A stretch of DNA of 64,000 bases from Betaproteobacteria bacterium (lineage in GTDB: Bacteria > Pseudomonadota > Gammaproteobacteria > Burkholderiales > Rhodocyclaceae): NCBI GenBank assembly GCA_016234745.1, contig JACRAR010000074.1, positions 124,001 through 188,000 of the forward strand, in the 5' to 3' direction. Shown piece by piece: positions 8,366 through 22,524 of this stretch (position 1 is the stretch's first letter; each line of letters opens with the position of its first letter). The position numbers and the translations under genes are program-made. The notes below the pieces were generated by a model, which searched no databases, had not been told where the DNA came from, and saw only the letters and a program-made list of their open reading frames with translations.

Positions 8366-8899
8366 TTAAGCGGCGCTCGACCCGGCGCCGGTTGAGGCCC
8401 TGCCGCCCAACAACCGGCGCAGCTGGTGCAGCGATTGCAGCGGTGTCAACGAGTTCAATTCAAGGCGCGGAAGCTCGATCGCATCAAGCGTGTTCTTCAC
8501 CAGCAAACCGAGTTCCGTCTCGCCCTGCATCTGCAGGCGACGGTTGAAGAACAGCGTGTCGGCGTCTTCTTCGCGCGTCAGCAAAGCCAGGTAGTCGCGG
8601 GTGCGCGCCGTGATGGTGAGATCCGCCGGCGTGGCGTCGAAGCTCGGCCGGAAGCCGCGCTCGTTGTAGGCAAAGCGCAGCGTCAGCCCCGCATCGCTGA
8701 CGCGAATCGCCAGGCGTTTACCCAGCATCGGTTCGAGGGGCTCGCGCGGCAACAGGCGGTCGAGCGCCAGGTTGAGCGCACTGACCAGGGCCAGGGTCGG
8801 CGGCAATTGCGGCAGGCGCTGACCAAAGCGGGCAAAAAATTCCGGCAGGGTGAAGTTGGGTATTTGCTTGATCATGTTCATCGGCATCTGCATGGGCAT
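8366..8899 (-). CDS. ubiT: Ubiquinone biosynthesis accessory factor UbiT (SCP2 domain)
   Basis: A 177-residue SCP2-type lipid-binding protein. The N-terminus (PEFFARFGQRLPQLPPTLALVSALNLAL) is typical of UbiT, and the SCP2 core runs about 60-150 (GKRLAIRVSDAGL, then ADLTITARTRDYLALLTREEDADTLFFNRRLQMQGETELGLLVKNTLDAIE). UbiT is needed for O2-independent ubiquinone synthesis, probably binding isoprenoid intermediates. It follows ubiV by 6 bp on the same strand, and the ubiU-ubiV-ubiT set is complete here. Confidence 0.92.
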   Translation of the reverse strand: MPMQMPMNMIKQIPNFTLPEFFARFGQRLPQLPPTLALVSALNLALDRLLPREPLEPMLGKRLAIRVSDAGLTLRFAYNERGFRPSFDATPADLTITARTRDYLALLTREEDADTLFFNRRLQMQGETELGLLVKNTLDAIELPRLELNSLTPLQSLHQLRRLLGGRASTGAGSSAA

Positions 8900-8905
8900 C
8901 GCGTC

Positions 8906-9802
8906 CTATTCTGCGAAGATTTGTTCCAATCCCGGCCGGCCATGCCAGAAACCATTGCAGGGCTCTCCCGGCAAATGCTGCCGGGCATCCTCCCAAGCGG
9001 CCTGCGGCGTCAGCAAGGTGTCGCGACAGCGCCGGAACAGATCGATCAGTTCGGCGGTATGCTCGGCCTGCGGACTGATGCGCGCCACGGCAACGTCGGC
9101 AGCCAACAGGGCGGGCATCTCCAGCAGCAGATTATAGACTTTCGCCGACTGCGTCTGAGTGCCGTTGAGCGTCAGGAAAGCCTCGCCGTCGCGCGTCGAC
9201 AAGGCCAGCCCTTCGGGGAAATCCAGGCAGCGAAATTCGCAGGCATCCTTCTGCAGATTGAAACGGCGCGCCGTGAAACAACGCGCCGAATAGGCCAGCG
9301 GCAATCGGCCCAGGGCGAAGACTTCGGTCTGCATATCCGCCGGACGCTGCGCCTGCAAGGCATTGAGTTGCGCCGCGCCGGCTTCGGGCGGCAGCACCCA
9401 GCGCGTGGCGCCGAGGCCAGCGATAAAGCGCAGCGTTTCGCCATTGAAAATATTCAGGGTGGGTCCGGCGATAAACGTCAGTTTCTTTTCCGCCAGCAGG
9501 CGCACCGCACCCATGTCATTGGCTTCAACCGCGAAGCGGCCGTTATCGACGAGCTTGCGGATGGTCTTAAGGTCGGACTCGGACTCGATCAGGGTTTGGG
9601 TGGACAAAATTGCCTGCTTGCCGGCCTCATCGAGCAGCGCGGCGATATCCAGCCAGTCCTCCGGACGCAGTTCATGGCGGCGCGAACACACTGTCTCGCC
9701 GAGGTAGACGATGTCGACGGGCTGCTCCGCCATCTGTGCATAAAAATCAAAGACGCGCTGGCGCGGCCAGTAGGTGAGCAGCGGACCCAAGGACAACATC
9801 AT
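8906..9802 (-). CDS. ubiV: O2-independent ubiquinone hydroxylation protein UbiV
   Basis: A U32-peptidase-like protein of 299 residues from the ATG at 9802 (another ATG follows directly). The reading frame is open further upstream, but that part translates a hairpin-rich spacer and is unlikely to be protein. The four [4Fe-4S] cysteines of UbiV are in place by spacing: C39, C175, C188 and C192 (RCFTARRFN, then DACEFRC), matching the family pattern of 13 and 4 residue steps. With UbiU it hydroxylates ubiquinone precursors without O2. Confidence 0.93.
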   Translation of the reverse strand: MMLSLGPLLTYWPRQRVFDFYAQMAEQPVDIVYLGETVCSRRHELRPEDWLDIAALLDEAGKQAILSTQTLIESESDLKTIRKLVDNGRFAVEANDMGAVRLLAEKKLTFIAGPTLNIFNGETLRFIAGLGATRWVLPPEAGAAQLNALQAQRPADMQTEVFALGRLPLAYSARCFTARRFNLQKDACEFRCLDFPEGLALSTRDGEAFLTLNGTQTQSAKVYNLLLEMPALLAADVAVARISPQAEHTAELIDLFRRCRDTLLTPQAAWEDARQHLPGEPCNGFWHGRPGLEQIFAE

Positions 9803-9945
9803 AGGAGCCCCGCCGCCGGACCGTCCGCGCGAAGCCTCCCCTCTAGGGGACAAGGCGGGGCAGTCAACAACCTGCGAGCCTTCGTTCTGCGAAGGAGAGC
9901 CGTAGTCACCCCCGTTCTCGGGACGGGGGTTGGGGGGTAGGCCGT
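9803..9945 (-). repeat. Hairpin-rich spacer between ubiU and ubiV
   Basis: Three inverted repeats in 143 bp: 9837-9850 (TCCCC/GGGGA), 9879-9895 (CCTTCG/CGAAGG), and 9908-9930, a perfect 8 bp stem (ACCCCCGT/ACGGGGGT) starting about 15 bp after the ubiU stop. It has no U-tract, so it is more likely an mRNA-stabilising or REP-like element than a full terminator. Confidence 0.6.
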
Positions 9946-10959
9946 TCATTTCCACGGACGATAGTAGGCGCCGAGCGTATGCGACTGGCCTTCGGACACC
10001 TTGTTGAGTTCGGCCATCCAGGCTGGCAGCGGCGTGTAATGCTGCGGGTCACGCGCGCAGGCATTGATCGCCGCACGCCACACCTTGGTGACCTGGGCCA
10101 CGTAGATCGGGCTGCGCTGACGTCCTTCGATCTTGATTGCACGCACGCCGATCTCCATGATCTGCGGCAACAGTTCCAGGGTGTTCAGACTGGTCGGTTC
10201 CTCGATGGCATAGTAGGTCGCATCGTCCACCGAGAAGCGTCCCTTGCACAAGGTCGGATAGCCGGCGCGCTCGCCATCGGCATAACGGTCGATCAGAATG
10301 CCGTTGAGTCGGGTTTCCATGCCCGCGGCGGTCTGCTCCCAGCGCACGCTCTTGGCGGGCGAGCAAGCGCCATTGCAATTGGGCGAAGTGCCGGTGGTGA
10401 AGGCGGACAGGGAACAACGCCCTTCGACCATGACGCACAAGCCGCCAAAGCCGAACACCTCAATCTCCACGTCGGTTTTGTCTATCACCTGGGCAACCTG
10501 CGCCAGCGAAAGCACGCGTGGCAGTACGGCGCGCTGGATGTTGAAGTGCTCGCGATAAAAGTTGATCGCCTCGTAGCTGGTCGCCGAGCCCTGCACCGAC
10601 AGATGCAAGCGCAACTGCGGATGGCTGCGCCGGGCATAGCCCATCAGGCCGGGGTCGGCCAGGATAACGGCATCGACGCCGGCCTTCGCGGCGCGGTCAA
10701 CCGCGCCGGTCCAGCGCAGCCAATTGTCGGCCTGGGGATAGGTATTCAGCGCCAGGAGCACCTTGCGGTTGCGCGCATGGGCATAGCGCAGGCCTTCCGC
10801 CAGCGCGGCATCGTCGAAATTCAGGCCGTTGAAGTTGCGCGCATTGGTGTCGTCGCGGAAACCGAGATAGACGCAATCGGCGCCATGATCGACGGCGGCC
10901 TTGAGTGCCGGCAAAGTGCCGGCCGGACAAACCAGTTCGAGGGGAGCAGCAGCGGACAT
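9946..10959 (-). CDS. ubiU: O2-independent ubiquinone hydroxylation protein UbiU (U32 family)
   Basis: 337 residues with the U32 start LELVCPAGTLPALKAAVDHGADCVYLG. The four cluster cysteines C175, C182, C199 and C238 have exactly the spacing of the UbiU [4Fe-4S] site (steps 7, 17 and 39), within FGGLCVMVEGRCSLS and later segments. It ends with LGAYYRPWK. UbiU and UbiV form a heterodimer that supports ubiquinone synthesis under anoxia. The gene lies 64 bp downstream of the bacteriohemerythrin gene on the same strand. Confidence 0.95.
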   Translation of the reverse strand: MSAAAPLELVCPAGTLPALKAAVDHGADCVYLGFRDDTNARNFNGLNFDDAALAEGLRYAHARNRKVLLALNTYPQADNWLRWTGAVDRAAKAGVDAVILADPGLMGYARRSHPQLRLHLSVQGSATSYEAINFYREHFNIQRAVLPRVLSLAQVAQVIDKTDVEIEVFGFGGLCVMVEGRCSLSAFTTGTSPNCNGACSPAKSVRWEQTAAGMETRLNGILIDRYADGERAGYPTLCKGRFSVDDATYYAIEEPTSLNTLELLPQIMEIGVRAIKIEGRQRSPIYVAQVTKVWRAAINACARDPQHYTPLPAWMAELNKVSEGQSHTLGAYYRPWK

Positions 10960-11023
10960 ACCGGCTCCAGCAAAAATAATTCGCTAGTCTAAACTTCCGC
11001 CGCCCAACGGGGCTTGACCTGAG

Positions 11024-11443
11024 TCAAGCCAATTTTGAGGGTTTCGTGAGAACCACCTGAGCACCGCCGGCGATATGCCTGGCATAGCCCTGGTCCGCGC
11101 CCATGATGTGCTGCACCAGCCAGTTGTGCAGAAATTCCACCGTACCCTTGGTCACATCCGTCTTCAGGGATTGCTGCTCAAGCTCCTTCAGCTTAATGAA
11201 AAATGCCTGGTGCAGGCCCATGTGGTCGGCAACTTCGGGATAGCCGAACAGGTGCATCAAGGCTTCCTCGACCGAAAAATGAATGCGGGCGAATTCATGC
11301 AACTGGATCAGGATGAAATGCAGGCTTGACCAAGTTCCGCCGGCGGCCACGGCATCTTTGATCAAATTGAAATAATCGAGCAGCACGCGATGCTGTTTGT
11401 CGATCTCATCGATGCCAACCGAGTACTCTGCCTTCCAGTGCAT
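11024..11443 (-). CDS. Bacteriohemerythrin
   Basis: A 139-residue single-domain hemerythrin; the ATG at 11443 follows a GGGGGA ribosome site. All di-iron ligands are visible: H18 (DKQH), H55 and E59 (HFSVEE), H74 and H78 (HMGLH), and H112 with D117 (HIMGAD). Bacteriohemerythrins bind O2 reversibly in the cytosol and serve in O2 sensing or delivery. It is the first gene of the minus-strand run leading into ubiU, ubiV and ubiT. Confidence 0.93.
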   Translation of the reverse strand: MHWKAEYSVGIDEIDKQHRVLLDYFNLIKDAVAAGGTWSSLHFILIQLHEFARIHFSVEEALMHLFGYPEVADHMGLHQAFFIKLKELEQQSLKTDVTKGTVEFLHNWLVQHIMGADQGYARHIAGGAQVVLTKPSKLA

Positions 11444-11660
11444 GCTTCCCCCATCCGGCGCTTTGTTCCTGAAAGCGATCCCAGCGTTTGCGCTCCGACA
11501 GATGATCCCATGTCTGACCGAAAGCGGCAAGCGTGAGAAGACCGGCAATGGAGGCGACCAAGTGTTTTCAGATAGAATGAGGCTCCATATAGGCTAGCGC
11601 CCTAAATCAAACACGGGCAGGAGCGCCTGTTCGTTCCCAATTATCCTTGCCTGACACACC

Positions 11661-13158: not shown

Positions 13159-14430
13159 ATGAGCAGCCGCAATCAAGATCTTTTCCTTCGCGCCCAGCGC
13201 AGCATCCCCGGCGGCGTCAATTCCCCGGTGCGAGCCTTCCGCTCGGTGGGCGGCACGCCGGTTTTCTTCACGCGCGGCGAGGGACCTTATGTCTGGGACG
13301 CCGACGGCAAGCGCTACATCGATTATGTCGGCTCCTGGGGGCCGCTGATTCTCGGCCACGCCCATCCCGAGGTGGTGCGCGCAGTGCAGGAGGCGGCGGC
13401 CAAGGGCTTGTCCTTCGGCGCACCGACCGAAGGCGAGGTCGAACTGGCCGAACTGCTGACCCGCCTGGTGCCGAGCATGGAACTGGTGCGGCTGGTCTCA
13501 TCCGGCACCGAGGCCACCATGAGCGCGATCCGCCTGGCGCGCGGTTTTACCGGACGCGATCTGCTGATCAAGTTCGAAGGTTGCTACCACGGTCATTCGG
13601 ACAGCCTGCTGGTCAAGGCGGGCAGCGGCATGCTGACCTTCGGCAACCCCTCTTCGGGCGGTGTGCCAGCCGATCTGGCCAAGCACACCCTGGTGCTCGA
13701 CTACAACAACCCGCAACAACTTCATGACGCCTTTGCCAAGCACGGCGACAAGATCGCCTGCGTGATCGTCGAACCGGTCGCCGGCAACATGAACCTGATC
13801 GCGCCACGTCCCGAATTTCTCAAGGCGATGCGCGACCTATGCACCCGCCACGGCGCGGTGCTGATTTTCGACGAAGTGATGACGGGCTTTCGCGTCGCCC
13901 TGGGCAGCGCCCAGGGTCTGTTCGGCATCACCCCGGACCTGTCGACCTTCGGCAAGGTAATCGGCGGCGGCATGCCGCTCGGTGCATTTGGTGGGCGGCG
14001 CGACATCATGGAGAAAATCGCCCCGCTCGGTCCGGTGTATCAGGCCGGCACGCTGTCCGGCAACCCGCTCTCGGTGGCCGCTGGCCTGGCGACTTTGGCG
14101 CTGATCCAACAACAGGGGTTCTACGCGGATCTGGCAAGCAAGACGCAGCGGCTTTGCGAAGGACTCTTGGCGGCGGCACGCAGCAAGGGGGTAAAGTTTT
14201 CCGCGCAATCGGTCGGCGGCATGTTCGGGGTCTATTTCCGCGCCAGCCCGCCCGGCAGTTATGCCGAAGTCATGGAATGCGACAAGGAGGCGTTCAACCG
14301 CTTCTTCCACACCCTGCTGGAAAAAGGCATCTACCTTGCGCCCTCGGCATTCGAAGCCGGCTTTGTTTCCGCGGCACATAGCGCTGCCGACATCGCCGCC
14401 ACCATCGCCGCCGCGGAAAGTTGTTTTTAG
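13159..14430 (+). CDS. hemL: Glutamate-1-semialdehyde 2,1-aminomutase
   Basis: A 423-residue class-III PLP enzyme. The N-terminus [20 protein letters not shown] is diagnostic, the PLP lysine is K266 in [13 protein letters not shown], and the [10 protein letters not shown] motif precedes it. It converts glutamate-1-semialdehyde to 5-aminolevulinate, the C5 route into haem. The start at 13159 ([13 protein letters not shown]) is chosen by homology, since the frame is open upstream through thiE. It ends 3 bp before the convergent diguanylate cyclase gene. Confidence 0.96.
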
Positions 14431-14433
14431 GGT

Positions 14434-15822
14434 CTAGTGCGCGGTGTAGCAGTAGCGGTTTCGCCCCTGCCGCTTGGCCACATACATGGCCTGGTCGGCA
14501 TTCTTGAGCAGGCTCTCGCCATCGCTGCCGTCATTCGGAAAGATGGCGATGCCGATACTGCCCGAGATGTGGCAGGTGTGGCTGCCCAGCTGAAAGGGGC
14601 GCGCAAGCTGCTGAAGAATATTCTGCGCGATGCGTGAAACGCTCTGGCTTTCGCCGAGTTCAACCAACACGATGACGAATTCGTCCCCGCCGAGACGCGC
14701 GACGGTGTCGGTTTCGCGAACGCATTCGCTGATGCGGCGCGCTGCCTCGGCCAGCAGTTGGTCGCCCCTGTCGTGTCCGAAAGTGTCATTGACGTGCTTG
14801 AAATCGTCGAGATCGATAAACAGCAACGCAACGCCGTGGTTGACGCGATGAGCTTTCTTGAGTTCAAGTTCCAGTCGGTCGAGAAACATGCGGCGGTTGG
14901 GCAGGCCGGTCAGGGCGTCGAAGTTGGCCTGGAACCAAATCGTTTCCTCGCTGCGTTTTCGGTCGGTGATATCGCGCACTAGGCAGAACAGTTCGCCTTG
15001 CGCCTGTGTCAATCTGCTCACCGTCACCTCGATCTCGATGAGATTCCCGTCCTGGCGCTTCCAACGCGTTTCATAGCGGCAGTGATTGCCTGCAAAGTCA
15101 CGCCCGGTACCGCCGCGATTTTCGGTTTCGACCTCCAGATCGGTGAGGGCGAGACCCAGTAAAATCTCGCGCGAATACCCTGTCAAATTGCTTAAGGCCG
15201 CATTGACTTCGCGCAGCTTGCCGTTTGAATCGACCAGCATGTAACCTTCCATCGCCGACTCGAATGCCAGAGCATAACGTTCCTGCTGTCCGGTCAGCTC
15301 GGCCGTGACGCGGCGTAAGACTCGCAAAGGATAGACCTTCAGGACCGCATACAAGAACAGGCCGCTCAACACCCCGAGAAGCAACATCAGCGAAACGCCG
15401 TACAAATCCGCACGGTAAGAATGCACGACTTCGACACTTCCCACGACGCGCCCCGACTCAAATATCGGCTGGCGACGGCTGAGTACCGGTGCATCGGGGA
15501 TCATTCCGACACTGGCCAGGTTGCGCCCATCCTGATCCCACAACAGGGTCGCCTCATCGTCCAGACCTGCGACATGGGTGGCTAGCGCCGCTTCCAGACG
15601 GGGTATCTGATACATCCACATTTCGGGGTTTCTGCTGACCAGCCCGGTGACAGCGGTCGCCTTGACGTAGGTCACGGTCTCGAGCAGCTGACTGTGGCTG
15701 CGGTAGGTTAACCCGGCGTAAACCAGCGGCAGGCCAAACGCGACCAGAAGTGCGCCGGCCAATGCCACGCGCCCCACCAGATTGGCCAGCCGGTCCTGCG
15801 CTTCGCGCGGTACCCGATTCAT
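14434..15822 (-). CDS. Membrane diguanylate cyclase with periplasmic and PAS domains
   Basis: 462 residues: a membrane helix at about 16-38, a periplasmic sensor region at about 40-140, a second helix at about 141-160, a PAS domain at about 180-295 (ending CLVRDITDRKRSEE), and a GGDEF domain. The active site is intact (ARLGGDEF, G378-F382), and an inhibitory RxxD site (R369-D372) stands five residues before it. It should make cyclic-di-GMP under product inhibition. Its ATG lies 4 bp after the stop of the PstS-like gene, so the pair is probably one transcript with coupled translation. Confidence 0.93.
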   Translation of the reverse strand: MNRVPREAQDRLANLVGRVALAGALLVAFGLPLVYAGLTYRSHSQLLETVTYVKATAVTGLVSRNPEMWMYQIPRLEAALATHVAGLDDEATLLWDQDGRNLASVGMIPDAPVLSRRQPIFESGRVVGSVEVVHSYRADLYGVSLMLLLGVLSGLFLYAVLKVYPLRVLRRVTAELTGQQERYALAFESAMEGYMLVDSNGKLREVNAALSNLTGYSREILLGLALTDLEVETENRGGTGRDFAGNHCRYETRWKRQDGNLIEIEVTVSRLTQAQGELFCLVRDITDRKRSEETIWFQANFDALTGLPNRRMFLDRLELELKKAHRVNHGVALLFIDLDDFKHVNDTFGHDRGDQLLAEAARRISECVRETDTVARLGGDEFVIVLVELGESQSVSRIAQNILQQLARPFQLGSHTCHISGSIGIAIFPNDGSDGESLLKNADQAMYVAKRQGRNRYCYTAH

Positions 15823-15826
15823 CGCT

Positions 15827-16642
15827 TCATGGCAGCCAAAGTCCGCTGTCGGTCAGCATCTTGCGCCCTTCCGGGGAATGGACAAAAGCAATGAAAGTGT
15901 CCGTATACGTGCTGCGCTTTGCCCGCATCACCAGAAACAGTCGCTTGAAATACGGGTAGGCGCCGCGTCCCAGGTTCGCCGCGCTGGGAATCCGGTCGTC
16001 CAGCTTGAGCGCTCTGAGTCCGCGTTGTTCGGAGAGTATCAGAGACAACGACGTGGAACCGATGGCTCCAGGAATTTTTTCCAAATCATCCGCGGCATCT
16101 TGGTCCGTGACAGCAAGTGTCAGGCCGGGGCGCTGCTCGGCGAGCGAAACCGCCTCGCGGATTTCTCCTGAAAAGGATTTCAGGGTCTCGCTATCGGAAT
16201 CACTGGGCGGGCGCAGCACCACGCGTATGAGGCTGCCATCCGGCCAAGTCGTCTGCCGCCCGGCGTAAATTGCCGCAAGTTGAGCGAGGCTGATTTCAAG
16301 GACCGGGGAACTCGCTGCCACCGCAATTACAAACGGTGTCCGGCCGAATTCGATCTCGCTTAAGCCGAGCCGGAGCTCATCCGGTTTCAGCGGGCGCGAC
16401 GTTACGGCAATATCGAGCGCGCCACTGCCTACAGCGCGCACGCCGCCAGTGCTGCCGAGGCTGGGCAAGAATCTCACCGCAATCCCGGGGTGCCTGGTGC
16501 TGAAAGCCTTGGCTAACAGTTGCAACGTGCCGAGCGCCGAACCGGTGCCGCCGACCCTTACTTCTTCCGCGCCGACACAGCCGGTTCCCGCGATCGATAG
16601 CAAAGCCGCTACGGCCAGACCGGAACAAACCACTCGAAGCAT
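15827..16642 (-). CDS. PstS-like phosphate-type periplasmic binding protein
   Basis: About 271 residues from the ATG at 16642. There is a signal peptide (LAVAALLSIAGTGCVGA), then a PBP-like fold with the oxyanion-binding motifs GTGSALGTL and LGSTGGVRAVGSGALDIAVTSRPL typical of the PstS family. No pstCAB genes accompany it. Instead it directly precedes, and probably shares an operon with, a membrane diguanylate cyclase that has a periplasmic domain. A sensory rather than transport role is therefore plausible. The ligand may be phosphate or another anion. Confidence 0.85.
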   Translation of the reverse strand: MLRVVCSGLAVAALLSIAGTGCVGAEEVRVGGTGSALGTLQLLAKAFSTRHPGIAVRFLPSLGSTGGVRAVGSGALDIAVTSRPLKPDELRLGLSEIEFGRTPFVIAVAASSPVLEISLAQLAAIYAGRQTTWPDGSLIRVVLRPPSDSDSETLKSFSGEIREAVSLAEQRPGLTLAVTDQDAADDLEKIPGAIGSTSLSLILSEQRGLRALKLDDRIPSAANLGRGAYPYFKRLFLVMRAKRSTYTDTFIAFVHSPEGRKMLTDSGLWLP

Positions 16643-16832
16643 GCAATATTTGCCAGTCAACTTGATCCCTGTCGTGTCATCAATGGTCCCATGGGGTATC
16701 CGCACAAGCTTGGCCTTATTTTAGGACTTGTTCGCATAATGTCCATGAGCGCTTTTCGGCTGCCTCAGGAAGCATGCGGGTGCGCGGATAGTTGGTGTAT
16801 ATTTCACGGGTTATCAAGCGTTGAGAGCGTGG

Positions 16833-18671
16833 ATGAAGCCCATGGATCAGGGATGCAGGCGCGAACTTGCTCGCAATCGCTGGTCATTGTCTGCTCTCAT
16901 TCGCCTGCCCGGCAAACTGGCGCTCGGAGTTGGATTGTGCCTGACCCTGTTGTCAGGTATATGCAGCGCCGCAGCCGATCCGAACAAAGTCATCCACGCT
17001 GCTTTTGAGGCACCCGACGACGGCTTCGATCCAGTCAAGACCACTAATCTTTATTCCGGCTGGATCAACGAGTCGATTTACGAAAACCTGCTCACCTACG
17101 ACTATCTGGCGCGCCCGGCCAAGCTGGTGCCGCTCACCGCCGAAGCGATGCCGGAAGTCGCCGACGGCGGCAAGACCTTCACCTTTCGCATCAGGAAGGG
17201 CATCTACTTCACGCCTGATCCGGCCTTCAAGGGGCGCAAGCGCGAGCTGACCGCACAGGACTATGCCTACACCTTCAAACGCCTGCTCGACCCGGTCAAC
17301 CGCTCGCCGTCCGCCAGCATGCTCGAAGGAAAAATCGTCGGCCTCGACGCACTCGCCGCCCAGGCCAAGAAGACCGGCAAATTCGATTACGCAGCGCCGG
17401 TTGCCGGTCTCGAAATACCCGACCGCTACACCTTGCGGGTCCGCCTGAATCAGCAGGACTACAATTTCCTGTATGTGACCGCTTATCATTCGCTGGCGGC
17501 TGTCGCGCGCGAGGTGGTCGAGGCTTATGACCAGCAAAGCAGCGCCCACCCGGTCGGCACAGGGCCGTACCTGCTCAAGGAATACGTGCCGCGCAGCAAG
17601 ATCGTGCTGGAAGCCAACCCGGACTACCGCGGCTATACCTGGAACTTCGCCGCCAGCGGCGAGCCCTGGGACGAGCAGGTGGTGCGCGACATGAAGGGCA
17701 AGCAGATGCCGCAAGTCGGGCGCGTCGAGATCAACATCATCGAGGAGGAGCAGTCGCGCTGGCTGGCGTTTCAGGGCGGCCAACTCGACCTGGACAAGCT
17801 GCCGCAGATAGCGGCGCCGGTAGTCATGGACGGCGACCGGCTCAAGCCGGAATTCTCCGGACAGGGACTCACGGTGTACCGCAAGCTCGAACCTGAAATC
17901 ACCTATACGCTGTTCAACCTGCGCGACCCGGTGATCGGCGGCTACACCCCGGAAAAGATCGCCCTGCGCCGTGCCATGGTCATGTCATACAACATCAAGG
18001 AAGAGATCGCGCTGATCCGCAAGGGCCTGGCGACGAAAGCCGAAATGATCGTGCCGGTGGGCGTGGTCGGCAATGATCCGAACTACCGCAGCAGCATCCC
18101 CTACGACCCCGACCTGGCCAGCCGTCTGCTCGACCATTTCGGCTACAAGCGCGGAGCCGATGGTTACCGGACTTTTCCGGATGGCAAACCATTGACGGTG
18201 AATATGCGCCGCGAAACGCAATCGGTCTCGCTCCAGTATGGCGAACTGTGGAAGCGCAGCCTGGAGAAGATCGGCCTGCGCCTCAACATCACGGTCAGCA
18301 ACTTCGCCGATAACCTCAAGGCCGCCACCGAATGCCAGCTTCCGTCGTGGGGCGCCGCCTGGTACGCCGATTTCCCGGAAGGTGAAAATTTCCTGCAACT
18401 GCTCTACGGCCCCAACGCCGGCCAGGGTAATCACGGCTGCTATCAGTCGGCGGCATTCGACGCGCTCTACAAGCAATTCGTGGCCACGCCACCCGGCGCT
18501 GAGCGCAACCGGCTGGCGATCGAGATGAATCGCCAGATGGAGGCGGACACGCCCTGGTCGCTGCATACCTCACGCATCCGCTACTGGTTGCTGCGGCCGT
18601 GGGTGAAGGGTTTCAAGAAGCACCCGATCCTGCAATCCGACTGGAAATACCTCGACGTGGAGAAGCACTGA
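16833..18671 (+). CDS. Peptide ABC transporter substrate-binding protein, first copy
   Basis: About 612 residues from the ATG at 16833; a TTG four codons upstream or an ATG at 16842 is also possible. The N-terminal export segment LALGVGLCLTLLSGICSAAADP is followed by an SBP_bac_5 (cluster C) fold: YENLLTYDYLARPAKLVPLTAEAMP, then DGGKTFTFRIRKGIYF, and GTGPYLLKEYVPRSKIVLEANP. Such proteins bind peptides in the periplasm for Opp/Dpp/Yej importers. It is a clear paralogue of the next gene and its TGA overlaps that gene's ATG by one base (TGATG). Confidence 0.92.
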   Translation: MKPMDQGCRRELARNRWSLSALIRLPGKLALGVGLCLTLLSGICSAAADPNKVIHAAFEAPDDGFDPVKTTNLYSGWINESIYENLLTYDYLARPAKLVPLTAEAMPEVADGGKTFTFRIRKGIYFTPDPAFKGRKRELTAQDYAYTFKRLLDPVNRSPSASMLEGKIVGLDALAAQAKKTGKFDYAAPVAGLEIPDRYTLRVRLNQQDYNFLYVTAYHSLAAVAREVVEAYDQQSSAHPVGTGPYLLKEYVPRSKIVLEANPDYRGYTWNFAASGEPWDEQVVRDMKGKQMPQVGRVEINIIEEEQSRWLAFQGGQLDLDKLPQIAAPVVMDGDRLKPEFSGQGLTVYRKLEPEITYTLFNLRDPVIGGYTPEKIALRRAMVMSYNIKEEIALIRKGLATKAEMIVPVGVVGNDPNYRSSIPYDPDLASRLLDHFGYKRGADGYRTFPDGKPLTVNMRRETQSVSLQYGELWKRSLEKIGLRLNITVSNFADNLKAATECQLPSWGAAWYADFPEGENFLQLLYGPNAGQGNHGCYQSAAFDALYKQFVATPPGAERNRLAIEMNRQMEADTPWSLHTSRIRYWLLRPWVKGFKKHPILQSDWKYLDVEKH

Positions 18672-20518
18672 TGGTTCGAGAGCGCATCCTCTGCCTCCTG
18701 CGTTGCTGCGCCATGGTCTGCGGAATTGGCTTGTGGGCCATGCCGTCTTCCCATGCCGCTGATCCGAATGCCCCGAAGGTGCAAGTACCCGGAGCGGTAC
18801 AAATCCCCTTGGGGGATAAGGTCCTGCGCGCCGTCTTCGTCGCCGCCGAAACCGGCTTCGACCCGGCGATAACGCGTGATCTGTATTCGGCACAAGTGAT
18901 CCAGGTGGTCTTCGAAACGCTGTACACCTACGATTATTTGGCACGCCCCGCCAAGGTGGTGCCGCAGACCGCCGAGGCCATGCCCGAGATCAGCGATGGC
19001 GGCAAGACCTACACGATACGGCTGAAGAAAGGCATTTACTTCTATCCCGACCCGGCCTTCGGCGGCAAGCGCCGTGAACTCACCATGGCCGACTACGTGT
19101 ATTCCTACAAGCGCCTGTTCGATCCGAAACTGGCCTCGCCCCATGTCTGGCTCTTCGAAGGCAAGGTGGTCGGGCTCGACGAAGCCGCCGAGAAAGCCAA
19201 GAAGACGGGGCGCTTCGACTACGACGCGACTATCGCCGGCTTCGAATTGCTCGACCGCTACACCCTGCGCATCCACCTCAAGCAGCCCGACTTCAATCTG
19301 AGCATGATCCTGGCGCACGAGCCGACCAGCGCCGTGGCGCGCGAAGTGGTGGAGAAATACCGCGACGGCATGGGCCAGGTTGCCGCCAATCCGATCGGCA
19401 CCGGACCTTATCGTCTGGCCGATTGGGTGCGCGGCTCGCGTATCGTGCTCGAAGCCAACCCTGAATACCGCGGCCTGACCTGGAACTTCACGGCCGGCGC
19501 CGACCCCGAGGATCAGGCCATTGTCGCCGCCATGAAAGGCAAGCGCATGCCGCAAATCGGCCGCGTCGATATCCGCATCATGCTCGAAGATCAGTCGCGC
19601 TGGCTGGCCTTCATCGACAACCAGGTCGACCTGGTGGAACTGCAGGGTCCGCTCGCGCCGAAGGCGCTGACCAAAGGCAAGCTCAAGCCGGAGTTGGCGG
19701 CGCAAGGCATCCAGTTGTCGCGCATCATCGACCCGGAGATCAGCTACAACTACTGGAACATGCAGGACCCGGTGATCGGCGGCCTCTCCAAGGAGAAGAT
19801 CGCGCTGCGCCGTGCCATTGCCATGGCCTACAACGTCAAGGAAGAAATCGCCATCGTCTGGAACGGCGAAGCGGAACCGCTCGAATATCCGATACCGCCG
19901 GGCATCGTCGGCCACGACCCGAACTATCGCAGCAGCGTGCGCTACGACCCCAAGCTTGCCAATGCCCTGCTCGACAAGTTCGGCTACCGGCGCGGGTCGG
20001 ACGGCTTCCGCACCTTGCCGGACGGCAAGCCGCTGACCATCAGGTACTCCTCGCGCAACGATTCGAACGGCCAGCATCAGGCGGAAATCTGGAAGAAAGC
20101 CTACGACTCCCTGGGCATCCGCATGGAAGGCAACACCAAGCCCTTCCCCGATCTGCTCAAGGCCGAGAAGCAGTGCAAGCTGATGTCGCGCAATTCTCCC
20201 TGGATCGCCGATTACCCCGACGGCGACAATTTCATGCAGTTGTTCTACGGCCCGAACACCCACCAGAACAACAACGGCTGCAACAAGATCCCCGAATACG
20301 ACAAACGTTACGCGGCATCGCAGAAACTTCCCGATGGCCCCGAGCGCAACCGGCTGTATCACGAGATGGCGCGCATCCTCGAATATTACGCGCCGATCCG
20401 CATCAGCTATGCGCGCTATCGCAACATGCTGGCACAACCCAAGGTCATTGGCTTCAAGAAGCATCCGATCCTGCATGCCGAATGGCTCTACATCGATATC
20501 GACAAGGAGAAGAAATGA
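18671..20518 (+). CDS. Peptide ABC transporter substrate-binding protein, second copy
   Basis: A 615-residue binding protein, colinear with the preceding one throughout (YTYDYLARPAKVVPQTAEAMPEISDGGKTYTIRLKKGIYF; DYPDGDNFMQLFYGPN). The signal peptide is near MVCGIGLWAMPSSHAADP. The start ATG at 18671 overlaps the upstream stop. The two copies have diverged in the central ligand region, which suggests different peptide preferences served by the one set of permeases downstream. Its stop overlaps the peptidase ATG (ATGA at 20515-20518). Confidence 0.93.
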   Translation: MVRERILCLLRCCAMVCGIGLWAMPSSHAADPNAPKVQVPGAVQIPLGDKVLRAVFVAAETGFDPAITRDLYSAQVIQVVFETLYTYDYLARPAKVVPQTAEAMPEISDGGKTYTIRLKKGIYFYPDPAFGGKRRELTMADYVYSYKRLFDPKLASPHVWLFEGKVVGLDEAAEKAKKTGRFDYDATIAGFELLDRYTLRIHLKQPDFNLSMILAHEPTSAVAREVVEKYRDGMGQVAANPIGTGPYRLADWVRGSRIVLEANPEYRGLTWNFTAGADPEDQAIVAAMKGKRMPQIGRVDIRIMLEDQSRWLAFIDNQVDLVELQGPLAPKALTKGKLKPELAAQGIQLSRIIDPEISYNYWNMQDPVIGGLSKEKIALRRAIAMAYNVKEEIAIVWNGEAEPLEYPIPPGIVGHDPNYRSSVRYDPKLANALLDKFGYRRGSDGFRTLPDGKPLTIRYSSRNDSNGQHQAEIWKKAYDSLGIRMEGNTKPFPDLLKAEKQCKLMSRNSPWIADYPDGDNFMQLFYGPNTHQNNNGCNKIPEYDKRYAASQKLPDGPERNRLYHEMARILEYYAPIRISYARYRNMLAQPKVIGFKKHPILHAEWLYIDIDKEKK

Positions 20519-22524
20519 GGCGCCTGATTCCTCTGCTCGCCTGTTGCTGGCTCTGTCTGCCCGCACTGGTCCAGGCAGCCGCTGAGCGTCCCTTGCTGCC
20601 GGTGCTGAGCGCCGAACAGATCAGCGGCGGCTGCAGCACCACCATCGACGCCCTGAAACAACGCATCGCCGCGCTGGAAAAATTGCCGGCAGCGAAAGCG
20701 CGCGATCCCAGACTGCTCTTCCAGCAATGGAACGCATTGCAAATCGCCCAGGAGGATTTCCAGGGTCCGGTCGAACTCCTCGGTGAAGTTTCACCCGACA
20801 AGGCGGTGCGCGATGCCGCAGAACCCTGCATGGTCGCGTTCAGCAAATACAACTCCGAGCTGTACCAGAACGAAAAGCTCTATGCCATGTTCAAGGCGGT
20901 CAAGGCGCGCGACCCCATCGACAGGAAGCTCCGGCAGGACCTGCTCTGGTCCTTCGAGGATACCGGCGTATCCTTGCCGGCCGAAAAGCGTGTGCGCATG
21001 AAAGCCATCCTGACCCGGCTCGAGGAATTGAGCCAGGCGTTCTCGCGCAACATCCGCGACAACGACCAGCGCCTGGCATTCAAGCCCGCTGAAGTCCAGG
21101 GCCTGCCGCCGGAATATCTGGCCAAGGCCAAGCGCGACGCCGAAGGCAACTACCTGCTCGGTTTCGCCTATCCCGAATTCATTCCTTTCATGGAGCATGC
21201 CGACAGCAGTGCCGCGCGTCAGCGCTACCTGTTCGCCTTCAATAACCGCGGCACACCGAAAAATCTTGAAATTCTCAAGGAAGCCATCGCGCTGCGCAAG
21301 GAAATGGCCGGCCTGTTCGGCCTGCCGAGCTTTGCCGACTTCGTGATCCGCCGGCGCATGGCGCAGACACCCGCGGCCGTGAACAAATTTCTGGGGGAAG
21401 TCAGGACTGCCGTGACGGCCGGCGAGAAGGCCGAACTTGAGGAGTTGCGTCTTTTTGCGGCGAAGGCGCAGGGGCAAACACCGGACGACACGAAGCTGCG
21501 GCGCTGGGACGTGCAGTACTGGCAGCAGAAGCTCAAGCGCGCACGCTATGACCTCGACCCGAATGCCTTGCGCAAATATTTCCCGGCAGAAGCCGCAGTC
21601 GCCTGGATCATGCACGTGTCGGGATTGCAGTACGGCGTGGAATTCCGGCCGGCTTATGTGCCAAATTCGGTGCCGGTCTGGCATCCCGAAGTACGCTATT
21701 ACGATGTCATCGATGCCCAGACACGGCGGCGCATTTCCGGCATTTATCTGGACATTCATCCGCGCGACGGAAAATTCAGCCATGCCGCTGCTTTCCCGGT
21801 ACGCGGCGCCAGTACCGCGGCGCGGCGCACACCAATTTCGGTGCTGGTGGCGAATTTCAATCGCGACGGTTTTGACGACAACGAAATGAAAACCCTGACG
21901 CACGAATTCGGCCACATTCTGCATGGCGTTCTCTCCAGGACGCGTTATGCCTCCCAGGCGGGCACCAATACCGAACGTGATTTTGTCGAGGCGCCTTCGC
22001 AGATGTACGAAGAATGGGCGCGCAATCTGGAACCTTTGGCCCTGGTGGCGAATTTCTGCCAAAGCGAGTGTCCCAGGGTTGATGCGGCACTGGTGCAGAA
22101 AATGACGGCGGCACACAACTTCGGGCGTGCCATCCGCTATGCGCGGCAACTGCTCTATGCGAGCTTCGACATGGCCATCTACGCCGACAAGCCGGTCGAT
22201 CCGCTGGCCGCGTGGAACGAAATGGAAAGCGCCACGCCGCTGGGCTATGTCAAGGACACGCAGTTTCCGGGCACCTTCAACCATGTCATGAGCGGCTACG
22301 GCGCGGGCTACTATGGCTACATGTGGGCAGAAGTGCTGGCGCTCGACATGCTTTCGGCATTCAATGGCAAACTCCTCAATCCCGAGGTGGGCGCACGCTA
22401 TCGCGACACCATCCTGAGCCGCGGCGGCGAAATGCACGGCATGGAGATGGTGCGCGGCTTTCTCGGCCGCGAGCCCAACAGCCAGGCCTTCTTCGCCGAG
22501 ATCGCCGGCAAACGGCTGAAATAG
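20515..22524 (+). CDS. Exported M3-family oligopeptidase
   Basis: A 669-residue zinc peptidase of the M3 (thimet/oligopeptidase A) family. The catalytic HExxH is H463-E464-F465-G466-H467, with the third ligand E492 in FVEAPSQMYEEW, and the substrate loop GYGAGYYGYMWAEVLALDM lies downstream. Unlike cytosolic OpdA it starts with a signal peptide (LIPLLACCWLCLPALVQAAAE), so it should act in the periplasm. Its ATG overlaps the stop of the second binding protein and the permeases follow, so it probably trims peptides bound for this importer. Confidence 0.92.
   Translation: MRRLIPLLACCWLCLPALVQAAAERPLLPVLSAEQISGGCSTTIDALKQRIAALEKLPAAKARDPRLLFQQWNALQIAQEDFQGPVELLGEVSPDKAVRDAAEPCMVAFSKYNSELYQNEKLYAMFKAVKARDPIDRKLRQDLLWSFEDTGVSLPAEKRVRMKAILTRLEELSQAFSRNIRDNDQRLAFKPAEVQGLPPEYLAKAKRDAEGNYLLGFAYPEFIPFMEHADSSAARQRYLFAFNNRGTPKNLEILKEAIALRKEMAGLFGLPSFADFVIRRRMAQTPAAVNKFLGEVRTAVTAGEKAELEELRLFAAKAQGQTPDDTKLRRWDVQYWQQKLKRARYDLDPNALRKYFPAEAAVAWIMHVSGLQYGVEFRPAYVPNSVPVWHPEVRYYDVIDAQTRRRISGIYLDIHPRDGKFSHAAAFPVRGASTAARRTPISVLVANFNRDGFDDNEMKTLTHEFGHILHGVLSRTRYASQAGTNTERDFVEAPSQMYEEWARNLEPLALVANFCQSECPRVDAALVQKMTAAHNFGRAIRYARQLLYASFDMAIYADKPVDPLAAWNEMESATPLGYVKDTQFPGTFNHVMSGYGAGYYGYMWAEVLALDMLSAFNGKLLNPEVGARYRDTILSRGGEMHGMEMVRGFLGREPNSQAFFAEIAGKRLK

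Follow-up and report, generated by a model that had tools for sequence, protein, structure and literature searches.

A pair of adjacent genes that encode a PstS-like periplasmic binding protein (PBP) and a membrane protein with a diguanylate cyclase domain was analyzed in a 64,000-nucleotide stretch of DNA from a betaproteobacterium of the Rhodocyclaceae (contig JACRAR010000074.1, positions 124,001 to 188,000; this whole stretch is referred to as the window). The pair is very probably a transport-free receptor in two pieces, in which the PBP is dedicated to signaling and docks on a sensor module that forms the N-terminal part of the membrane protein. The gene of the secreted PBP adjoins that of a receptor with a periplasmic domain, and no dedicated permease is seen among the neighboring genes. 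Both genes lie on the minus strand, the PBP gene first and the cyclase gene second, and an earlier note made from the sequence alone described them accurately as a PBP with a signal peptide, 4 bp upstream of a PAS-GGDEF cyclase that has two membrane helices, an RxxD site and an intact GGDEF motif. The same note read them as a transport-free sensory pair, a reading that is strengthened by the conservation of the pair, the co-variation of its parts and sensor residues that track the PBP, but that is not supported as regards phosphate as the ligand or a cyclase as the fixed partner.

Conservation of the pair was searched for with the PBP sequence alone, which left the neighboring gene free to vary. 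A scan with a PBP alignment, taking one genome per species, returned 76 loci spanning Beta-, Gamma- and Alphaproteobacteria, Thermodesulfobacteriota, Nitrospirota and Nitrospinota (as well as three records labeled only Deltaproteobacteria and one Sumerlaeota; labels of metagenome-assembled genomes (MAGs) may be wrong), and the sensor module adjoins the PBP in 74 of them, so that the co-occurrence of the two genes across genomes is borne out by loci found through the PBP alone. The two exceptions are L160, which lies at a contig edge and cannot be judged, and L132, where the PBP has no sensor within 10 kb. In a sample of the family (199 genomes) each of the 17 orthologues that score above 115 bits, the window's own PBP not counted, is followed directly downstream on the same strand by a sensor-matching frame, the test being an N-terminal match to the first 175 residues of the window cyclase (weakest match 14 bits, L054); ten of these 17 (L040, L042-L047, L049-L051) are taken as the same loci as in the 76-locus set. 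In an even sample of the phylum (398 genomes, at most six candidates scored per genome) the module accompanies all 20 PBP matches of at least 169 bits, window included, versus none of the 10 weaker matches at 121-135 bits, with 14 more rows at 108-120 bits standing outside the comparison (loci L212-L230 may overlap L126-L201). Chance adjacency was considered and is ruled out by the 74 of 76 loci together with this sharp cut. A separate observation concerns L069:4882-7136, where the PBP gene is apparently broken into fragments before an intact sensor-PAS-PAS-HD-GYP gene.

What stands behind the module varies. The 74 paired loci comprise 35 with GGDEF-EAL, 29 with histidine or hybrid kinases (a count that includes L161 and L187, which have interrupted sensor or kinase frames), two with HD-GYP and one with GGDEF alone, the remainder being four modules without an output domain and three unassigned loci (cut or broken); these labels were assigned by hand, with Pfam checks on examples. 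A conserved unit of PBP plus cyclase, as the earlier note had envisaged it, is rejected on these counts. As judged from sequence, the conserved unit is instead the receptor half, PBP plus sensor module, behind which outputs, often not cyclases, are exchanged. The PBP tree requires at least 11 changes of output type, against a mean of 28.3 for shuffled labels, and outputs therefore appear to be inherited for a while and then exchanged (L132 and L159 carry no output label in this tree, and L160, L182, L198, L199 and L201 lie outside the PBP alignment).

The two halves of the receptor also vary together. For pairwise distances at the 35 GGDEF-EAL loci, the correlation between PBP and sensor is 0.84, versus 0.47 between PBP and GGDEF and 0.41 between sensor and GGDEF (the correlations with output domains exclude the window row); the sensor thus co-varies more with a separately encoded PBP than with the GGDEF domain on its own polypeptide. 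With HATPase as the output domain, 23 kinase loci give 0.78 for PBP and sensor and 0.47 and 0.48 for the other two comparisons. After thinning, by removal of PBPs at least 70% identical, the corresponding values are 0.78, 0.32 and 0.26 for GGDEF-EAL (n=26) and 0.65, 0.39 and 0.37 for kinases (n=18), and in Mantel permutations of the thinned sets the observed PBP-sensor value was reached in 0 of 2000 in each.

Some individual loci bear on the outputs in other ways. At L178, L179, L183 and L200 (three Thermodesulfobacteriota and one record labeled Deltaproteobacteria) the module stands in a protein of 239-373 residues with an HGICPEC tail and no output domain found (the Pfam run covered L179). 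At L192, L193 and L195, from Kiloniellales/Rhodospirillales MAGs, a REC-HD-GYP protein directly follows the PBP-sensor kinase, which suggests that the same receptor may reach cyclic di-GMP (c-di-GMP) via phosphotransfer. At L161:5738-10361 the sensor module is interrupted after its periplasmic part by ~1.8 kb of foreign-looking frames, with the kinase part continuing downstream; this looks like a mobile-element insertion.

The converse search, with the sensor module in a sample of the order (399 genomes, at most eight candidates scored per genome), returned 28 matches in 27 genomes, 11 with an adjacent PBP and 17 without. With a larger module model, 12 of these 17 PBP-less modules score 64-151 bits and five score 34-54; the lowest-scoring ones may be a different module. 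A PBP-family search found no family PBP elsewhere in the 17 genomes, the best score there being 89 bits versus 209-308 bits in four PBP-bearing genomes. The two directions of search thus give an asymmetric result: the module can exist without the PBP, while the PBP hardly ever exists without the module.

Modules with and without a PBP were compared site by site (101 versus 17; 118 rows, 114 different sequences), with the reservation that the rows are related by kinship and Fisher values overstate significance. Four sites track the PBP: P66 is kept in 97/101 modules with a PBP versus 7/15 without, W69 in 101/101 versus 10/16, R75 (as R, K or H) in 93/101 versus 2/15, and D/E122 in 98/101 versus 4/17; G128 does so more weakly (96/101 versus 10/17), and five control sites, namely P32, the P and R of the PLR motif after the second transmembrane helix (TM2), S135 and L80, do not differ. 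All three of W69, R75 and D/E122 are present in 90 of the 101 modules with a PBP versus one of the 17 without. Within one genus, the PBP-bearing genome has NPLVW and YDSG and the PBP-less genome SRSVL and YASG, with R75 in both. In the model, the four residues are located beyond the first long helix, in a short helix (73-80) and in the turn between the last two strands, a topology that would place them at the membrane-distal end; on this sequence comparison, P66, W69, R75 and D/E122 form a possible PBP-docking face.

The module that carries these residues has no Pfam match at E≤1 in the window protein; LapA_dom is the weak match seen most often among all 19 module members, in three of them (best E 0.026), and by sequence no solved relative was found below E 0.13. 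Its model (predicted local distance difference test score (pLDDT) 93.5) consists of a long helix with TM1, a small periplasmic alpha/beta domain and the TM2 helix; the hydropathy profile shows hydrophobic segments at about residues 12-40 and 138-166, and the periplasmic domain has a PAS/Cache-like fold reduced to four strands. The match scores are modest, and PAS/Cache domains make up most of the match list, which includes 4onx_B (Z 9.6, root-mean-square deviation (rmsd) 2.8, 95 aligned), WalK (4ywz_B; Z 9.3, rmsd 2.7, 112 aligned), CitA (2j80_B; Z 8.3, rmsd 2.6, 93 aligned) and a LapD orthologue. Foldseek gives a single match at E≤0.001, to 9a5d, a WalK-YycH model.

The window PBP matches PF12849 (PBP_like_2) at 109.8 bits against a cut-off of 27, and at E≤0.001 its Pfam matches are PF12849, PF03466 and PF13531 only. 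Its model (pLDDT 94.3) has the PstS fold, with 4q8r as the best VIA match (Z 29.0, rmsd 2.8, 236 aligned), and its closest solved relatives are phosphate-binding proteins. The curated PstS scores are not reached (69.3 versus 206.6 bits for TIGR02136 and 20.5 versus 205 for TIGR00975), and the gene is not encoded with pstCAB, its neighbors being the cyclase gene, an aminotransferase-like frame and an SBP_bac_5 gene. The earlier note had credited the protein with PstS oxyanion motifs: the TG(S), S-x-G and SR loops are indeed there, but the R...SGT phosphate loop is not, reading R-P-P-S-D-S-D-S in its place. Among 72 aligned PBP members G32, G34 and R144 are invariant, position 64 is S or T in all 72 and R83 is kept in 71, while position 148 is D in 63 and E in 9, and position 150 is D in 43, N in 23 and E in 4 (D, N or E in 70/72).

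This acidic loop 4, [DE]-x-[DNE], is found in 96 PBPs with the sensor module and in two without (L132 and, at a contig end, L160), the SGT/SGS pattern, counted anywhere in the protein, in one with the module (L229) and 11 without, and other loop types in four with the module, two of these PBPs being cut or broken, and in 18 without it; the ten family orthologues taken as repeats and L070 are left out of these counts. Since the acidic loop is almost confined to sensor-paired PBPs, loop change and partner change go together. Phosphate, which the earlier note had favored as ligand, is made doubtful by the replacement of the PstS SGT loop through nearly the whole PBP family and by the pst genes that the genome has of its own. 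The absence of pst transport genes stated in that note holds for the neighborhood and fails for the genome, where a pst locus lies ~190 kb from the pair (C53:331226-334111), with one PstC above the cut-off (best match C53:332101-332961), a further PstC/A-like match and its own PstS (L071), which has the SGT loop.

The conservation of R83, R144 and S/T64 favors an anion or a carboxylate, and the invariably acidic position 148 suggests a ligand with a proton, an amino or a hydroxyl group and not plain phosphate, although an acidic residue is compatible with phosphate insofar as the PstS pocket itself presumably uses an aspartate (D56). Position 35, mostly N, S or A in the aligned members, we take, by our alignment, to face T10 of E. 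coli PstS. The ligand of the window PBP is probably an anion, and residues of this kind argue against keeping phosphate as its default. Genome context offers no clue among the 25 largest neighbor clusters listed for 77 pair loci: pair and antisense frames aside, the largest is a loose cluster of ATP-binding cassette (ABC) ATPases, present at 10 loci, the pair itself forms one large cluster that also takes in other signaling genes, and no permease family stands out among the recurrent neighbors listed.

Related pairings were seen outside this family of loci. Sister PstS-like PBPs in the same bacterial family, at 134-145 bits (L057, L058, L059, L060 and L063) have an aspartate at 148 (e.g., RENTDASR) and lie directly before hybrid histidine kinases whose N-termini do not match the sensor module (that of L058 is dCache_3); they make up a second PBP-receptor lineage. 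More distant PstS-like PBPs at L065, L072 and L076 lie directly before or overlap genes for GGDEF-EAL-REC proteins of ~1150 residues, a third PBP/c-di-GMP pairing; the long N-terminal part of these proteins has no Pfam match apart from GAF and HAMP, which are seen in L065 and L072.

The mechanism that we propose for the window pair is as follows. The exported PstS-fold PBP would bind a small periplasmic ligand and close, and the closed form would dock on the distal end of the PAS/Cache-like periplasmic domain, near P66, W69, R75 and E122. The periplasmic domain would then move TM2, whose motion, passed on through the PAS linker, could alter how the GGDEF dimer pairs or how active it is. The dimer would make c-di-GMP under product inhibition at the RxxD site, the PBP would feed no transporter, and in evolution different outputs would have been attached to the conserved receptor half. 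Of this picture, sequence shows the conserved adjacency, the exchange of outputs, the co-variation, the PBP-tracking sensor residues and the replaced SGT loop; ligand binding, docking and where it occurs, the sign of the response and the synthesis of c-di-GMP are inferred.

Several observations weigh against a dedicated two-piece receptor. One PBP, that of L132, has no sensor nearby, and PBP-less sensor-like modules exist (17 of the 28 in the order sample), so that the module may work alone. One of these modules, at L084, keeps the candidate docking signature (with K at 75), and around half of the PBP-less modules retain W69 and P66. The PBP tree is a quick one with many weak branches, just 21 of its 69 inner branches bearing a star, and the starred branches alone force three changes for GGDEF-EAL and three for kinase; the co-variation test includes no species tree to control for descent; and no recurrent neighbor points to the ligand.

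If the receptor is bipartite as proposed and its ligand is inorganic phosphate, the pair would set c-di-GMP as an additional gauge of phosphate, next to Pst/PhoR. The fold, the solved relatives, the retained S-x-G and SR loops and presumably the aspartate of the PstS pocket would fit such a gauge, and Pi-loaded PstS is reported to stimulate the chemoreceptor CtpL (PMC4926252). The distribution of loop 4 makes it unlikely nonetheless, R...[DE]x[DNE] having taken the place of R...SGT in 96 sensor-paired PBPs while SGT/SGS is seen in 11 PBPs without the module and one with it, and the genome has its own pst genes besides. The residues at position 35, set against T10 of PstS, point the same way. 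A low probability is also given to a PBP that binds no small molecule and serves as a regulatory subunit holding the sensor on or off, like YfiR-YfiN or WalK-YycH. The periplasmic domain does resemble those of WalK and the LapD orthologue, which presumably work with protein partners (for WalK, compare the title of 9a5d); however, the residues equivalent to the PstS cleft (G32, G34, R144, S/T64 and R83) are highly conserved, and would be needless in a pure scaffold.

A periplasmic domain that senses the ligand itself, with the PBP concentrating or presenting the ligand or being a bystander kept by operon structure, could account for the PBP-less modules and has precedent in a fold family that includes direct ligand binders such as CitA. 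It is nevertheless quite improbable, as the PBP lacks the module in just one of 75 testable loci and co-varies with it beyond the output domain, and R75 and D/E122 are near invariant in paired modules and mostly absent from unpaired ones. Finally, the PBP might work in trans for Pst or some other ABC permease of the genome, and signaling would then be a secondary role. This reading, which could draw on the canonical pst locus and on the loose ABC ATPase cluster, is a very remote prospect, given that the pst locus already includes a PstS that bears the SGT loop and that no permease family is prominent among the recurrent neighbors listed. The two-piece receptor dedicated to signaling, with a PBP ligand that is probably an anion and may be other than plain phosphate, is the reading adopted here.

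The features of the pair are collected in Table 1. A GTG start further upstream would extend the PBP to 292 residues, and a lipobox cysteine is not conserved among its aligned relatives. The pair is flanked on one side by a convergent frame ending at 14430, aminotransferase-like by eye, and on the other by the divergent SBP_bac_5 gene. This gene belongs to a divergent set (16821-22524), in which two tandem genes for SBP_bac_5 proteins of the peptide-binding type are joined by one for an M3 peptidase. Elsewhere in the window (8366-11548), genes for an SCP2-domain protein, two U32 peptidase-family proteins and a hemerythrin stand in a row, a set that we take to resemble the UbiTUV set of oxygen-independent ubiquinone synthesis.

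Table 1. Features of the PBP-cyclase gene pair, in window positions
Feature	Positions	Strand	Basis
PstS-like PBP, 271 residues from ATG	15827..16642	-	PF12849, E 2.6e-31
Putative PBP signal peptide, ~residues 1-25	16568..16642	-	hydropathy maximum at residue 4; cleavage site by eye
PBP loop 4, residues 144-151, RPPSDSDS (PstS counterpart R...SGT)	16190..16213	-	alignments with relatives and PstS
4-bp spacer, PBP stop to cyclase ATG	15823..15826	-	sequence
Membrane protein with diguanylate cyclase domain, 462 residues	14434..15822	-	open reading frame and Pfam
Sensor module, residues 1-180	15283..15822	-	conserved; model pLDDT 93.5; PAS/Cache-like matches
Periplasmic part of sensor, ~residues 40-137	15412..15705	-	hydropathy and model secondary structure
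Candidate PBP-docking residues P66, W69, R75	15598..15627	-	retention with versus without PBP
Candidate PBP-docking residue E122	15457..15459	-	D/E retention with versus without PBP
Cytoplasmic PAS domain, residues 181-285	14968..15282	-	PF00989, E 1.1e-11
GGDEF domain, residues 299-456	14455..14928	-	PF00990, E 2.9e-56, 190 bits
RxxD (RETD) inhibitory-site motif, residues 369-372	14707..14718	-	sequence
GGDEF signature, residues 378-382	14677..14691	-	sequence

The input signal of most c-di-GMP enzymes is not known. Here the input half is recognizable from sequence alone while the output has been repeatedly exchanged, and four residues can be named as a probable docking face. Identifying what one PBP binds would point to the signal behind dozens of cyclases, phosphodiesterases and kinases in a single step, and synthetic signaling could use the receptor half as a modular input. 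Retention of the pair across several phyla with exchange of outputs suggests a widespread, uncatalogued way to sense an extracellular cue without importing it. A broader claim, to which we would give even odds, is that these loci represent a portable two-gene receptor class, in which a PstS-fold PBP retuned off phosphate is read, via a conserved distal face, by a minimal PAS/Cache module plugged into cyclases, cyclase-phosphodiesterases, HD-GYP phosphodiesterases and histidine or hybrid kinases. In Pseudomonadota, Thermodesulfobacteriota, Nitrospirota and Nitrospinota alike, these receptors would then probably all report the same type of ligand, the sensing of which in this way would be new.

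Several known systems resemble the pair in part. In YfiN/DgcN with YfiR, too, a two-helix diguanylate cyclase has a small periplasmic domain and is partnered by a periplasmic protein; unlike YfiR, the window partner is a PstS-fold PBP, and the window cyclase does not reach the DgcN/YfiN family score (190.9 versus the 325-bit cut-off, the GGDEF part alone being matched). In NspS-MbaA of Vibrio cholerae, a polyamine PBP acts with a GGDEF-EAL receptor; NspS presumably belongs to a different PBP family from the window PBP, and the system has one receptor with GGDEF-EAL, whereas the receptor half of the window family carries several kinds of output. The likeness is that a separate PBP controls a membrane c-di-GMP enzyme by association, import being described as the work of another system, PotABCD1 (PMC8967002). 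ArtI-STM1987 of Salmonella, which responds to arginine, is similar in that a PBP is needed for the response of a diguanylate cyclase with a periplasmic domain, and differs in its dCache receptor and putative arginine PBP (PMC8846402). In PstS-CtpL of Pseudomonas aeruginosa the docking partner is likewise of the PstS fold, and the domain of the receptor is described as not binding the ligand itself; unlike the window PBP, which has lost the SGT loop and adjoins its receptor gene, that PstS also serves a transporter, and the receptor is a chemoreceptor (PMC4926252). Similar in gene arrangement and use are AioX-AioS, ArxX and ArrX, where an oxyanion-type PBP dedicated to sensing is encoded next to a membrane receptor, in this case a histidine kinase; AioX is PhnD-like, whereas the window PBP has no PhnD match at E≤0.001 (PMC5908839). 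In the crystal an Asp of AioX contacts a phosphate ion, yet isothermal titration calorimetry is reported to have detected binding only for arsenite among the ligands tested (PMC5908839), and by analogy AioX shows that a phosphate-like pocket can be retuned.

Control of receptors by PBPs is accepted as a mechanism and extends to c-di-GMP enzymes (PMC9602780); among PBP-clan domains in c-di-GMP proteins SBP_bac_3 alone had been studied, according to a review (PMC8846402). No description of the present family was found in the open-access literature as represented by titles and abstract openings (subscription journals and preprints lie mostly outside that coverage), and one candidate article, PMC8789113, is unrelated. 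From the known PBP-driven receptors the present family differs in its PBP subfamily, in a sensor module without a Pfam match and in the exchange of outputs behind it.

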